From Sergeia podlipaevii (taxonomy: Eukaryota; Euglenozoa; Kinetoplastea; Trypanosomatida; Trypanosomatidae): a DNA stretch of 64,000 nucleotides. The notes beneath the pieces are model-generated. The model made no database searches. It worked only from the letters and a program-made list of their open reading frames with translations, and had not been told where the DNA came from. How positions within the stretch are numbered: position 1 is the stretch's first letter; every line of letters starts with the position of its first letter. Where the stretch lies: NCBI GenBank assembly GCA_030849805.1, contig JASANZ010002255.1, positions 1 to 64,000 on the forward strand. The letters run 5' to 3'. Of the stretch, positions 42,612 to 51,706 are shown in pieces. The position numbers and the translations under genes are program-made.

Positions 42612-43334
42612 TTATGTCCAAGGAAGATGATTCGCAAACAGAAAGCCCCCAATGATAGACCACGTGATCATCCACATCAGCACAGCACTGGTGAGAAGAT
42701 TACGAGGTTCACTCACGAGCTGCGCGCTGACCAACCAGTATAGCGCAGGACTGGACATCACGAACCTATTCGCTACTTGTATATGCATCACGGTGAAGGC
42801 AATGATACACAGCGCGCACAGATACACTACATTGGATGATTTCACCATGAGTTCAATCAGGTGATAGAGTGTTCGCTTCTCAGCCATCACATCGGGCGAT
42901 ACGGGCGTCACATCGCTACTATAGCTCTTCCCCTTGTCCCACAGCTGCCATATTGGCTGCACATAGAATTTCCACGTCATAAAGACAATGAGGCCCCCAA
43001 TTGGGAGTGCGAGCAAGATATTTGGGCTATTGCTGATGGTGTAGGCAGTGAAGAACCCCACGTTCCAGTACTTCTTCTGCAAGATGGCATAGAACTTCCA
43101 GAACTTGGCACCAATATCGGCCTGGTCGCTGAGCGGCCACAGAGGAACATACCGCACCCACCCCAGATAGTTCATGGTGCAATATGGGGCAAGGATAATC
43201 ACACACTCAAGCACTAACACAAGGACCCGGAATGGGTGAGGCCAGCGACGCAGTGGATAGAGAGTGCGAATACGTGCTCCGTTTAAAAGCGAAAGAGAGC
43301 TGTGACCACTTTTCCTTTGATCATCGTCTCCCAT
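42612..43334 (-). CDS. GPI mannosyltransferase II (PIG-V/GPI18), C-terminal part in a shifted frame
   Basis: This 240-codon frame encodes the C-terminal half of PIG-V. Recognisable blocks shared with the human protein as I recall it are KKYWNVGFF (human QYWNVGF-type), MHIQVANRFVMSSPALYW (human MHVQVLTRF...YW) and the terminal ANHLPWT (human CNFLPWT). Several hydrophobic helices are present. It lies directly behind the 612-codon N-terminal frame, overlaps it by 52 bases and is read in the -1 frame. Its frame is open back to 43430, so the true join can be anywhere between 43430 and 43283; the ATG at 43334 need not be a real start. Without that join the N-terminal part would lack the terminal membrane helices. 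Confidence 0.85.
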   Translation of the reverse strand: MGDDDQRKSGHSSLSLLNGARIRTLYPLRRWPHPFRVLVLVLECVIILAPYCTMNYLGWVRYVPLWPLSDQADIGAKFWKFYAILQKKYWNVGFFTAYTISNSPNILLALPIGGLIVFMTWKFYVQPIWQLWDKGKSYSSDVTPVSPDVMAEKRTLYHLIELMVKSSNVVYLCALCIIAFTVMHIQVANRFVMSSPALYWLVSAQLVSEPRNLLTSAVLMWMITWSIIGGFLFANHLPWT

Positions 43335-45121
43335 GTACCCTTCATTCTCATTTGTTCTTGCTGTTCTTGCTGCTGCTGTTGCTGATTCCAGTAGTGAGCG
43401 TGAATAATGCGCCAGCGGTGCCGGTATAGATCAGGGAAAAATAGTTGAACAAAAGTTGGATAAAGAAGAAATCCAGCACACACAAAGCCGTTGGAGCGAA
43501 TGGTCGCTGCAGCGAAGAAGCACGCCACGGCGGTTGCTTCACGTGCATTAATATACGTCGTTTCCCAATGAAGAGCAAAGCCTTCCTCAGAGAGCACCTC
43601 GCGTTCTTCCTTCACTTCATCTAAATCGTTATCATCACCACTGCTACTCACTGTGTTGGCGGTGCGTGCCCTAAGCTGCGCATGTGTGATGAACGACGAC
43701 TTGGTGGTGACTTCACTAGGAAGCGGACACAGAAAGGTGCTCAATTTGTGAGTGGAGCGACGCCGAACTCTTAAACGCGCTCTCGATCTCCCTTCTTCCT
43801 TTTCGCGTTTATACTGCTCTCCTTCCGCCGCCGTTTTTCTCTCACAATTGTCTCTACCACTGACTTTTCCTCCATCGCTCATGCCCGCTTGGCTACCGCT
43901 AGAAGACGGAAACACACTCGCCGCTGGTGTGGGGGAGTAATAGGCAAGACAATAGATACCCAAGAAGCAAAAAAGGGAGAAGAAGCTTTCGGTGTAGACC
44001 ACCACAGTAAATACCATTGCTGGCGTGATCACCCACAGCAGCACCACGGCCCCAACCACACGCCAGCGCGTGTGGTACTCCCCGGCAGTCGCTGCCACCT
44101 TCCTTCGAGCTTCACCTGCGTACAATTTTGATGACGACGGTAGCGATTCCTCGCTCCCAAAGCTCGCACTGCTACTGTGGCTGTAGATAGGTGATGTTGG
44201 GATACTAGCGTTCGTGCCCATGCAATAGAAGTGTGACTGATCTAACATGGTGCCTATCCCACAGTAACACAGGCGCAGTGCAAAGGATGTTTGCGCGTAC
44301 TCCTCCAGAGACCAGCGTTGTCTGCCTCCTTCACCTTTGCCGCATCTAGAACCGCCGCTATTGCTAGCGGAAGAAGAGAAAGAGGTACCAGTGCGGAAGG
44401 GTGGGAGTCCTCGCTCTTGATCGTCGGTGATGTTCCGTCCATAGTCCCAACGGCGTAGTAATGAGAGCGACTCAGGCCCAAGGAACGTTAATATAGTCAA
44501 TCTACGCAGTAACACAGCGGCAATGCCTGAGACACCGATGTTTATGAGAGACAAGTACATCGACACTGGGGCCAAGGTGTGAAGCGCAGGGACAAGGACC
44601 ATGACTACATAGGATACCGCACGGATCATACACGGAATGAAGGGAAAGAATACCATCAGATTTTCGTGCGAGTACCCATGCTTTGCAATGTGATAGTAGT
44701 GAACTGCATCCCAGTTCTGTCCTTCAGGGAAGCGCTGGTCATCGTACAGGAGCTCGCACGAGTCAAACGTGAGCGACGTGGAGGGAAGGCCAAAAAAGAG
44801 AGGAAGCACACGCCTGCTCCACAGCATGTACAGCACTAAGACCCAGCGCACTATAAAAACCCACATAAAAAGAGACAAGTCGGAGCAACGTGCTAAGTAA
44901 TATATAATATCGGGAGGTGAGAAAAGCCACGAGGGCAAACGTGAGGTCGGAGACGATGATGGTGGTGGCGGTGGTGTCTGAATACTTAGACTATCACTAG
45001 ATGAATCGACGTCTTTATGTAGGCGCTGCGCGTGGTGGGAAGTGTTGTTGTTGTTGTTGTTGCTCTTCTTAGCGGGATAGCGCATGTAGGTATCTGCCTC
45101 CTTTGCCAAACTATGCAGCAT
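43283..45121 (-). CDS. PIGV: GPI mannosyltransferase II (PIG-V/GPI18), N-terminal part
   Basis: A 612-codon frame for the ER-membrane dolichol-phosphate-mannose-dependent enzyme that adds the second mannose to GPI precursors. The lumenal catalytic loop is visible as GQNWDAVHYYHIAKHGY, with FFPFIPCMIRA following; these match the human WDAEHF...HGY...FFP pattern. Later ATIRSNGFVCAGFL matches the human ARSNG block. Long Ser-rich and charged loops enlarge it compared with the human protein of about 490 residues. The frame ends in a Gln/Glu-rich stretch and 12 residues that do not look like family sequence, while the missing membrane helices continue in the -1 frame (42612-43334). Either the sequence has an indel, the ribosome shifts frame, or the gene is truly broken. 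Confidence 0.88.
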   Translation of the reverse strand: MLHSLAKEADTYMRYPAKKSNNNNNNTSHHAQRLHKDVDSSSDSLSIQTPPPPPSSSPTSRLPSWLFSPPDIIYYLARCSDLSLFMWVFIVRWVLVLYMLWSRRVLPLFFGLPSTSLTFDSCELLYDDQRFPEGQNWDAVHYYHIAKHGYSHENLMVFFPFIPCMIRAVSYVVMVLVPALHTLAPVSMYLSLINIGVSGIAAVLLRRLTILTFLGPESLSLLRRWDYGRNITDDQERGLPPFRTGTSFSSSASNSGGSRCGKGEGGRQRWSLEEYAQTSFALRLCYCGIGTMLDQSHFYCMGTNASIPTSPIYSHSSSASFGSEESLPSSSKLYAGEARRKVAATAGEYHTRWRVVGAVVLLWVITPAMVFTVVVYTESFFSLFCFLGIYCLAYYSPTPAASVFPSSSGSQAGMSDGGKVSGRDNCERKTAAEGEQYKREKEEGRSRARLRVRRRSTHKLSTFLCPLPSEVTTKSSFITHAQLRARTANTVSSSGDDNDLDEVKEEREVLSEEGFALHWETTYINAREATAVACFFAAATIRSNGFVCAGFLLYPTFVQLFFPDLYRHRWRIIHAHYWNQQQQQQEQQEQMRMKGTWETMIKGKVVTALFRF

Positions 45122-47724: not shown

Positions 47725-50700
47725 TTACCTCCTCGTCTTACTCAACTTGGATGAAGGGGCGGCCTGTTCCTTGCGTGCTTTCTTAAAGCCGCGCTGCTGG
47801 GCTCCACTGGAGCCGGCCTCCTCAGCCCTTGGTCGTCTCGCTGACGACTGCGTGGCGCTATGGCGGTGCTGCTGCTCCTTGTCATGGGACCTAGTGGTGA
47901 CACTACCCACCCCACCCTTCCTCCTTCTACCCTGACCAGAAGCGGCTTCAGCATTTTTGCTAGTGATATTCGTAGTCAAAGCAGCTGGGGTAGGTGAGGG
48001 CACAGAGAAACTAGAGGCGGGAAGAATGGCACCACGGCCCACGCGCAAAACCTCCTTGTGCATCTGCTGACACTGCTTCAGCGAGGCACTCGCCGTGACG
48101 CCCACCACAAAGATGGCGCTAGGTGCCAGTGCATCGTAGAACACCATACCTTGATCTCGAATGGCGGCTCGTACTGTGCGCACCGCGTGCGCGGCGGGCT
48201 CGCGCTCCACGAGCTGAGTGATGTAAACCCGAGTCGCCTCAGCGTCTAGTTCGTCCATCTGCCAGATGCGAGCGAGCGTGGCCGCTGAGGAGGAAAGTTG
48301 ATGGCTATCAAGAGAGCTGATCTCGCCTCCGACCATGGAGGAGACAGCGGCAACACCCAGAGATGAGGAAGACGACGATGCGGCAGAAGCTGCACCGGCA
48401 ATGTGGAGAAGGCGATCAGGCTGCAGGATGAGCTTGGGGTGGAACAGCATCTGGAAGTCAAAGACGGAAGAGCTGGCGTGAAACACCTCGCGCTCGGTTG
48501 ATATCGCCACATCACCGCTTCCCCCTGCCGGGAAGGACGAGGACGAACCCTCTAAGGACACAACCCCACCGTTCCCCATAAATCGGAGTAGGAGCGCCAC
48601 TACGCCCTTCGCGAGTTGCACCAGGCGATACATAATCATAGGTCTTGGGGTGGCGGCCGTGAAGGGACTCTCATGCGGAGCATACGGGGTAGCAATGAAT
48701 AGACCTTGATGCTCTCCGAGCTTGCGCACAAGAGTCGCGGCGGTGGCCTCGTCCTGGCCTTCGTCCGTGTAGGGCAATACGAGCGGGGTGCTCCAGTCGT
48801 ACGTGGCCAAGAGCTGCACAAAACGGAGGAAACCGCTGGCAGGGGTCTTGGGAATGCTGTTGGCACTCAAGTAGGCGTTAGCGACAAGCAGCTCAATCGC
48901 CTCGGGAAGAATAAACTCGTAGAGCATCATCGCACTCACCCAGCGCTTGGCGAGACGCACTGCGTTGGCGTAGCTATGATGTCCAAAGGCCACGCTACGC
49001 ATAAACTTGGCGTGCTGGACTGACCAGAAGAGTTTCTGCTCAAGTACGTGAGCCTCAGCGTTCCGCTCGAGCGCGCGCAGCAGAGAAACCTCACGATAGT
49101 GGGCGACATAGACACGGAAGAGGTACCCCCTAAAGATGACATCCACGGAGTGACTGGTGCAGAATGCGTGGACAGCGCTCGTATCCGTCGTGGTCGTGGT
49201 GGCAGCCTTTCCGTCCGCGCCACGCTCCGCAAAGCGGTGCTGAATAGACTTGGCAAGCTGACCACATATAGCGCCTTTCATCATCGCAATGGCCTCTGGC
49301 GTGTCTGGGATCTTGTGCTTGTCATCGATAGAGAGAACGCAGTGAATTGGCGAGATGACAGGGGCGGTGCTGAGGCCTGTGTAGGCGTCGGCGTAAAGGT
49401 TGTCGCTAGAACGGGTGAGTGCGAGGTGCGGACGCACAGGAAACACCTCAGTGTGCCGCTCAGACTCGGAGATGATGTCAAAGCCAATGATCTTGCAAGG
49501 CAGCGCGTTTTTGGGAAGGTCTGCGATCATCGCCTGCACACCCTTGGAAGCCTCCAGCAAACTGCGGTGCATGAGTAGGGCAGAGTCCTTCCACTCTGCG
49601 CCAATGCGCTCAGCCAGGAATCCTTCAAGGCCGCCAAGCAGCACGGAGACTTCCGCGCGAGGTGCGTCAAGGTGCTTGCGGATAGCAAACTCAACCACGC
49701 GCCGCGTGACGGTGGAGGCGGAGAGAGCCAGGGTGGAGTGGGTTCCCATGTCCTCCTTGAACTCCCAGAGAATGCATCGGTATACACCGCCGTCAGGAAA
49801 CTGACGAGTGGAGGTGATGTCAGCACCCCAGAAGCGATTAAAAGCAGCCACGGCCTCGGCCATCTCGAGGGCAGGACCCCGAGTGAGGCGGTTGCGGCCT
49901 TCCGCTTCTGAAGTGAGCACTATCGCCACCTCGATTGTTGAAGGCCCCGAGTACCACGCGGTGACGTAGCTCGCCCGTACGCCTAATGCCTCGCGCAGGA
50001 TAGCAAGGACTGCTTGCACCTTGTGCATACGAGGGGAAAAATACACGGAGCTCTTCTTGACTACATCACCGCTGCGAATGTCTTCTTGTTCTTTCGTGTT
50101 GTTGTTGCCAAGACAGATCGTCAAGGCAACATCGTGACGGAGCTGCAGAGGCTGGAAAGCAATGTTCTCAAACACCTCTGTCGCGCGTGTAAACTGTAGA
50201 GCCTCCTCCGCAGCACACTTTACCACATTATTGAAAAACTCCGTTGAGGTGCGGAAGAGCACGTTCATGAGCTCACCCTTGAGACGCAGCACCGCCACCT
50301 CGCCGCGTTTTTCTGTCATTGGGATTACGGCGACGCTGCTGCCGCTCTCCTCCGTGGCCGTGATAGTACCGGGAGTAAACAGACCTCGAGAGATGTGCAC
50401 CCACACAGCGCGCACGATGTTGTCGTCCGACATGGTGGAGGAGACAATTCCTTCCTCCAAAAGCTTCAGCACCATCGCTGCCAGCACAAAGCCATTCAAG
50501 CCCTCGGAGTGGCCCGAGGAGGGCGCGCTGAGCCCAACGTGATGGGCCCAGCACTTGAGAATGACAATGGCGCGGCGCAACGTGTTGCTCTTTACGCACA
50601 CCTCATGCAGCTGTTTGAGATAGCTAGGGATAAGATAGTCCTCCAAGATGAGGTAGCTATACAGAGGGTGCTTCTTGATCGCCGCACTGCCTGTCACACG

Positions 50701-51411
50701 ACCGGCACGGAACGCTGGACGAAAATGCAAGTTGACGTGGAAGGACTCGTACTGCGGGGCGGCACCGCGACTGCTGCTGCTGCCTGCCTCATACTTCAGG
50801 CGACGGAAGTGCATGCGAAGAGTTTCCTTCTCGCCAGTGCTGTAGCATCCATGGATAGCCGCACGCTCAACCTCCATACGACTAAAGCGAGCTGCTGCTG
50901 CGACGTTGGCCTTCTCAGCGTGACCACCATGTTTGCCTTCTTGTTCTCCTTCGTCCCCGTCGTCGCTGGTATTATCACCAGCCGCCGCCGCCGCTGCACG
51001 CTTCTCTGCGCCACTCGCAATCTTCCTCAGATAGGATTCCACTTCCAGAAGAAAAGCCTGACGGCACTGAAGGTAGCGCCCATCCTGCACGTCCACCAGG
51101 CTGCACTTAGCCTCCGGGATGGTGAGAACAAGGTCCGCTCCCACGGTACCCTTCTTGCTGTGGTGCATGCTGGAGAAAGGAACAGGGTGCGCGCACGTGC
51201 GTAGGAGGAAACTACCTGCGGGGCTGACGACATCGGCAGTAGTCGTAGCGGCTTCTTCGCCATCCGGAGAGGCCTTCTTCTCCTCAACGCGCGTTTCATA
51301 TCCCTTGCTCTCGTAGTACTGAATCAGAGCTGTGTGCAGGTCACGCAGGTGGGTCTCCACCCTCTGGATGAGGGCGTCTGACCAGTGAAGACTATACTCT
51401 TGCAGAGACAT
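47725..51411 (-). CDS. NOL6: NOL6/UTP22 (Nrap) SSU-processome protein
   Basis: A 1228-residue nucleolar protein of the Nrap family, a UTP-C component of the small-subunit processome needed for early 18S rRNA processing. The fold is a tandem inactive nucleotidyltransferase/poly(A)-polymerase arrangement. Visible family blocks include RRAIVILKCWAHHVGL followed by LNGFVLAAMVLKLL near residue 300, and YFSPRMHKVQAVLAILREAL near 457. Next comes the characteristic FNRFWGADITSTRQFPDGGVYRCILWEF, then a second catalytic-like half with HSYANAVRLAKRWVSAMML. The tail is low complexity and basic (KKARKEQ). Length is close to the usual figure of about 1150-1240. The ATG at 51411 is chosen; the upstream 66 codons in frame are T-rich leader. 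Confidence 0.88.
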   Translation of the reverse strand: MSLQEYSLHWSDALIQRVETHLRDLHTALIQYYESKGYETRVEEKKASPDGEEAATTTADVVSPAGSFLLRTCAHPVPFSSMHHSKKGTVGADLVLTIPEAKCSLVDVQDGRYLQCRQAFLLEVESYLRKIASGAEKRAAAAAAGDNTSDDGDEGEQEGKHGGHAEKANVAAAARFSRMEVERAAIHGCYSTGEKETLRMHFRRLKYEAGSSSSRGAAPQYESFHVNLHFRPAFRAGRVTGSAAIKKHPLYSYLILEDYLIPSYLKQLHEVCVKSNTLRRAIVILKCWAHHVGLSAPSSGHSEGLNGFVLAAMVLKLLEEGIVSSTMSDDNIVRAVWVHISRGLFTPGTITATEESGSSVAVIPMTEKRGEVAVLRLKGELMNVLFRTSTEFFNNVVKCAAEEALQFTRATEVFENIAFQPLQLRHDVALTICLGNNNTKEQEDIRSGDVVKKSSVYFSPRMHKVQAVLAILREALGVRASYVTAWYSGPSTIEVAIVLTSEAEGRNRLTRGPALEMAEAVAAFNRFWGADITSTRQFPDGGVYRCILWEFKEDMGTHSTLALSASTVTRRVVEFAIRKHLDAPRAEVSVLLGGLEGFLAERIGAEWKDSALLMHRSLLEASKGVQAMIADLPKNALPCKIIGFDIISESERHTEVFPVRPHLALTRSSDNLYADAYTGLSTAPVISPIHCVLSIDDKHKIPDTPEAIAMMKGAICGQLAKSIQHRFAERGADGKAATTTTTDTSAVHAFCTSHSVDVIFRGYLFRVYVAHYREVSLLRALERNAEAHVLEQKLFWSVQHAKFMRSVAFGHHSYANAVRLAKRWVSAMMLYEFILPEAIELLVANAYLSANSIPKTPASGFLRFVQLLATYDWSTPLVLPYTDEGQDEATAATLVRKLGEHQGLFIATPYAPHESPFTAATPRPMIMYRLVQLAKGVVALLLRFMGNGGVVSLEGSSSSFPAGGSGDVAISTEREVFHASSSVFDFQMLFHPKLILQPDRLLHIAGAASAASSSSSSLGVAAVSSMVGGEISSLDSHQLSSSAATLARIWQMDELDAEATRVYITQLVEREPAAHAVRTVRAAIRDQGMVFYDALAPSAIFVVGVTASASLKQCQQMHKEVLRVGRGAILPASSFSVPSPTPAALTTNITSKNAEAASGQGRRRKGGVGSVTTRSHDKEQQHRHSATQSSARRPRAEEAGSSGAQQRGFKKARKEQAAPSSKLSKTRR

Positions 51412-51706
51412 GTATGCTGGGGTAGGGAGCAAACTGATTGCAATTAGAAAATAAATCAGCTGTGCTAATATATGTTTTTTTTTTTTTTTTAAATAAAACG
51501 AAAAAAGGGATAGAGGCCAAAAATAACAAAAGAACAATAAGGCGGGAAAATGTGTGAGGACACGTTTTTGTTTTAGTAAGTTAAAAAATAGTAAGTAGCT
51601 CTTCGGCATACAGGTGAGACAGTTACATATGCGAATTTATCTTTTTTTTTTCTTCATTGGGTAGTGTACAGTACAAATAGAAAGAGATTCACGCAAACAG
51701 TACTAT

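Follow-up and report, generated by a model that had tools for sequence, protein, structure and literature searches.

GPI mannosyltransferase II (PIG-V) is a GT-C enzyme whose mannose donor is dolichol-phosphate-mannose. In the window, the whole stretch of 64,000 nucleotides analysed here, its sequence is spread over two overlapping reading frames of the minus strand. This raises the question of whether the interruption lies in the consensus or in the DNA of the cell and, if the latter, whether the cell makes use of it. PMC8591177 assigns the second mannose step to TbGPI18.

PIG-V sequence in two overlapping frames

The preliminary description had reported PIG-V as split into two overlapping frames, with the N-terminal signature in 43283-45121, the C-terminal signature in the -1 frame, and 43430-43283 open in both. 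All of this was borne out by the open reading frame coordinates, the motifs, and the profile matches given below. The features are as follows:

42612..43430, minus strand: C frame of PIG-V/GPI18; opens after TGA 43433-43431; carries YWNVGF, HIQV..RF, and LPWT motifs
43283..45121, minus strand: N frame of PIG-V/GPI18; 612 amino acids; stop TAA 43285-43283; carries WDAVH...HGY, YTES, and RSNG motifs
43283..43430, minus strand: overlap of 148 nt in which the N and C frames are both open

The C frame is in the -1 frame relative to the N frame, and its first ATG, at 43334, would give a product of 240 amino acids.

Both pieces matched the family profile PF04188 (Mannosyl_trans2) above its curated cut-off of 22.4 bits, the N piece over profile positions 16-136 (35.2 bits, E 1.2e-8) and the C piece over positions 210-443 (78.3 bits, E 9.9e-22). 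These were the only PF04188 matches in a profile search of the genome (23,386,757 bases in 576 contigs from 10,013 bases up), and the C piece, when searched against the genome, matched only itself. Since both pieces match one profile and are its sole matches, the two-frame observation is far beyond chance. PIG-V is single copy among contigs of at least 10,013 bases, and an unbroken copy may lie on a shorter contig. Aligned with relatives, each piece retained the conserved PIG-V motifs through to the C-terminal PWT. Besides the frame break, no further stop, frameshift, or decay of conserved residues was found in either half, and LPWT was kept. The locus therefore resembles PIG-V/GPI18 in its profile match across both halves, its invariant motifs, and its C-terminal PWT, but differs in that, as assembled, the chain is shared between two overlapping frames and is not encoded as one polypeptide.

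A sequence search of the PDB returned no match for the N piece and a single insignificant match for the C piece (E 0.21), and Rfam gave no match at the gathering threshold. At the level of structure, the AlphaFold2 model of an intact relative, P0001, aligned best to membrane glycosyltransferases with experimentally known structures, which supports a GT-C fold; each of the 24 best VIA-align rows was either a membrane glycosyltransferase or chain U of the GPI transamidase. VIA-align ranked Foldseek's own candidates, for which Foldseek reported nothing at E <= 0.001, and the model itself was modest (mean pLDDT 64.8).

Three protein database searches yielded 14 relatives, which were compared as protein records, at the protein and not the DNA level. 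Two of the searches covered proteins of approximately 0.55-1.75 times the query length, taking the best ~8,000 candidates by shared words, while the third admitted short fragments. The closest protein was P0001 (44% across 58% of the part used as query); among the ~8,000 candidates scored there was no near-identical protein for comparison with a second assembly. On the proposed check of the frame in related species, 13 of the 14 relatives were unbroken single proteins of 524-727 amino acids with both halves present, the fourteenth was a C-terminal fragment, and none of the 14 was split at the position of the PIG-V break. The fragment, P0014 from Leishmania naiffi (168 amino acids), starts at an internal Met, at a family position downstream of that of ATG 43334; from its sequence, it is perhaps another broken model of the PIG-V gene.

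The minus strand carries 19 of the 23 open reading frames of at least 200 amino acids in the window and, in a codon-usage scan, all 21 of its coding segments. We take this one-strand layout to be a trypanosomatid polycistron, a label supported by the named PIG-V relatives, which come from Leishmania, Porcisia, and Trypanosoma. The second long open reading frame upstream of PIG-V (47725-51609, minus strand, 1294 amino acids) encodes an Nrap-type nucleolar protein, with PF17404, PF17405, and PF17406 above cut-off and PF17403 just under.

The loop where the frames meet

Similarity to the relatives extends in the N frame to approximately HYW, near 43387, and begins in the C frame at approximately RTLYP, with the Pfam match of the C frame starting at 43307. 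The distance from the RSN motif to the next P(H/S)..R motif ranged from 42 to 119 residues in 12 of the 13 full-length relatives; P0004 was excluded from this range because the pattern matched elsewhere and gave a false motif distance (-41). The corresponding distance in the window, 257 nt, lies within the range of the relatives. In the P0001 model, residues 419-436 have pLDDT values below 50 and are placed between helices 406-417 and 445-476. As judged from this model, the middle and end of the overlap 43283-43430 correspond to a length-variable, low-confidence loop.

The overlap also contains a repeat:

43353..43384, minus strand: imperfect, low-complexity CAG/CAA/GAA run that encodes a Q-rich stretch in the N frame

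The interval had been described as starting in a CAG/CAA run, which proved inaccurate, as the run sits within it. Codon usage placed the break at 43358-43286 with a posterior of 0.83 and at 43430-43359 with 0.17, although the change point was weak. With so weak a change point, and with the larger posterior lying largely downstream of the run, the CAG/CAA/GAA repeat cannot be singled out as the site of the break. The overlap contains no homopolymer longer than 4; just upstream of it there is a stretch of 5 T.

A probable consensus error, or a possible recent mutation

We consider it probable that this is an ordinary single-copy PIG-V gene whose frame is interrupted by an indel in the consensus, arising from a read or assembly error or from collapsed alleles. 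In the living cell, PIG-V would then be made as one polypeptide. Either an error at or close to the low-complexity run or the merging of alleles of different length would have brought the indel into the consensus, and the interruption would fall in a non-conserved loop of the protein. We infer that the break most likely lies in the consensus and not in the DNA of the cell.

Several observations favour this reading: both halves are conserved, carry no other lesions, and meet in a loop; 13 of the 14 relatives are single proteins; the overlap combines a loop of variable length and low model confidence with a CAG/CAA/GAA run; and no usable slippery site was found. Frameshift artefacts from collapsed alleles and indels have been documented in the Trypanosoma brucei Lister 427 assembly, according to the excerpts of PMC8445201 considered here. 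The present case resembles those artefacts in being a single gene with an interrupted frame, and an internal repeat is among the causes named in those excerpts. It differs in that the T. brucei cases were shown by error-corrected, phased assemblies, while the PIG-V break is seen in a consensus sequence. Against a consensus indel stand the lack of a homopolymer longer than 4 in the overlap, the codon-usage posterior largely downstream of the low-complexity run, and a strong predicted RNA stem after the N-frame stop, described below.

The frequency of broken frames elsewhere in the genome also bears on this question. Among 179 family-matched genes (49 kinesin, 121 kinase, 4 tRNA-synt_1, 3 Glyco_transf_22, 1 PF05007, and 1 PF01650), none had pieces in different frames, the pieces of any one gene having the same open-frame length, and no stops were reported within the matches. 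These counts cover conserved domains, and variable loops may be more error-prone; the kinase genes represent 121 of 214 candidates scored, some partial kinase or kinesin matches without a partner piece were taken as divergence, and one kinesin match is at a contig end. The codon-usage scan took in the window and 20 further stretches of 10 kb, 264 kb in all, and selected 106 segments, 89 of them of at least 100 codons. With one pair taken per locus, two split pairs were left, PIG-V and a mobile-element-like locus, L006, making PIG-V the one non-mobile split pair among the 89 longer segments. An unfiltered scan for split open reading frames gave 24 candidate pairs in the same 264 kb, many of which resemble antisense shadow frames. 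Since the genes examined were clean, a break such as that in PIG-V is uncommon, but this cleanness does not tell error from mutation. It also counts against an artefact, because an error falling exactly at PIG-V is not the default expectation.

Other genes of the GPI pathway are unbroken in the same genome: one PF05007 gene (presumably of PIG-M type), one PF01650 gene (presumably of GPI8 type), and three Glyco_transf_22 genes. The pathway thus looks kept, which again favours an error in the consensus.

A real and recent frameshift, either in one allele of a heterozygous gene or as a fresh loss tolerated because some trypanosomatids or life stages can dispense with GPI anchoring, is unlikely but comes next in rank. 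PIG-V is single copy among contigs of at least 10,013 bases, and the absence of a second lesion is what a recent event predicts. Allelic differences in coding-sequence length, involving 123 putative genes, are described for T. brucei in the available part of PMC8445201. Knockouts of GPI10 in T. brucei and GPI8 in L. mexicana are mentioned in the passages of PMC3738449 considered here, so the expectation that the enzyme is essential is weaker than had been claimed. On the other side, the same passages suggest that the pathway is possibly essential in T. cruzi epimastigotes, which lends that expectation some support and speaks against a tolerated loss, and the unbroken PF05007, PF01650, and Glyco_transf_22 genes give no sign of pathway decay.

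The preliminary description had offered an assembly indel, a programmed frameshift, a two-polypeptide enzyme, and a pseudogene. This list covers the main possibilities, which we would rank as an assembly or allele indel, then a real mutation, with frameshifting or two chains far behind. An old pseudogene was rejected, since, the break aside, both halves remain intact through to the conserved LPWT. If the gene is ordinary, the genome has a GPI mannosyltransferase II that automatic annotation may miss or truncate, and the enzyme should not be counted among lost genes.

Candidate recoding signals at PIG-V and at a mobile-element-like locus

It is quite unlikely that the break is both real and used, in which case PIG-V would be produced either in two separate chains or through an atypical shift close to the N-frame stop (TTT TAA), aided by the downstream stem. 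Recoding would then set the second mannose step of GPI anchoring, and the anchor pathway, which determines the surface chemistry of trypanosomatids, would contain a membrane glycosyltransferase that is recoded or naturally split. The features that bear on this are:

43433..43439, minus strand: T TTC CCT heptamer in N-frame phase, just outside the overlap; a slip here leads to a stop after 2 codons
43281..43287, minus strand: T TTA AAC heptamer spanning the N-frame stop; in C-frame phase, the wrong phase for an N-to-C shift
43181..43280, minus strand: stable predicted RNA stem (-31.7 kcal/mol, z -3.08), starting two bases past the N-frame stop

In conventional programmed frameshifting, ribosomes would shift from the N to the C frame within the overlap, part of the product would be the full enzyme, and the amount of enzyme would be regulated. 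Both frames are open and intact across the 148 nt, as this would require. The absence of a classical X XXY YYZ heptamer in the zero frame had been noted before, and within the overlap 43430-43283 we likewise found none in N-frame phase. The statement needs qualifying just outside it, where T TTC CCT at 43439-43433 is the sole strict heptamer in N-frame phase over the final 450 nt of that frame. This site cannot serve, since a ribosome slipping there would run into a stop 2 codons later, leaving no in-phase heptamer that opens into the C frame.

The stimulatory RNA structure of a -1 frameshift usually lies about 5-9 nt downstream of the slippery site. The stem at 43280-43181 was the only folding window with z <= -3 among 121 scanned across the PIG-V gene; of 164 control windows taken from five other open reading frames, 0.6% reached this value. 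The position of the stem two bases past the N-frame stop could fit a recoding signal. However, it lies too near the candidate sites, with no slippery site at the usual spacing, and three folding windows over or just past the overlap were ordinary in structure (z +1.66, -0.17, and +1.21). The overlap is also not conserved among the relatives, as judged from their protein records, 13 of 14 being single proteins and the other a fragment. The frameshifting literature among the matches listed, including the accessible part of PMC5009743, concerned viral and mitochondrial cases and included no nuclear trypanosomatid gene; a recoded PIG-V would be the first nuclear case in trypanosomatids among those matches. 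The textbook -1 signal at L006, described below, indicates that such signals may be used in this genome. Compared with that gag-pol-type arrangement, PIG-V shares two frames in the -1 relation and an overlap of similar kind (148 nt, against 127 nt in L006), but it has neither the in-phase A AAA AAC nor the 11-bp stem. Taken with these differences, programmed frameshifting at PIG-V appears very unlikely.

Still less probable is a two-chain enzyme: internal trans-splicing, or reinitiation at ATG 43334, would let the C frame be translated alone, and the membrane halves would then assemble into a split GT-C enzyme. The break would fall in an inter-helix loop of the predicted model, where a split could be tolerated, and ATG 43334 precedes the start of the C-frame Pfam match at 43307. 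A pyrimidine-rich stretch (43471-43458) does lie upstream of the C frame, but it is short compared to the tract upstream of 45121, and the first two ATGs past it belong to the N frame and not the C frame. None of the relatives is split here, the P0014 fragment starting at a later Met.

A cis-spliced intron joining the frames is extremely improbable: one of the two phase-fitting GT-AG spans found is short and lies in the loop (43338-43277, 62 nt), but the other (43450-43347) would delete conserved residues, and the break showed neither a convincing intron nor an internal splice site. According to PMC8445201, introns are believed to occur in only two T. brucei genes, and several inspected genes with pipeline-assigned introns showed frameshifts instead.

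The second split pair left by the codon-usage scan, a mobile-element-like pair of open reading frames, is located at L006:2-1935 (minus strand, contig C150), with a copy at L030:560-2719 (contig C380). A gag-sized ORF1 ends in a Q-run and is followed by a -1 frame, the two L006 frames overlapping by 127 nt. L006 and L030 carry A AAA AAC in phase and an 11-bp perfect stem that begins 4 nt on and holds the ORF1 stop in its loop; the predicted fold (55 nt) has a z of -3.7, and the 4 spacer nucleotides also pair. L006 and L030 are identical at 72 of 74 nt over the site and at 181 of 200 nt just downstream, while the C380 copy is degraded, its match lying in two frames with one TAG.

L006 itself had no Pfam match. 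Diverged copies in contigs C329 (43%) and C422 (35%) gave weak matches to Ulp1/C48 protease, below the Pfam cut-off. The pair may belong near TATE/VIPER, a group of trypanosomatid retroelements; the portion of the TATE/VIPER account in PMC6681497 considered here makes no mention of a programmed frameshift. Its sequence features make L006/L030 a strong candidate for a true programmed -1 frameshift.
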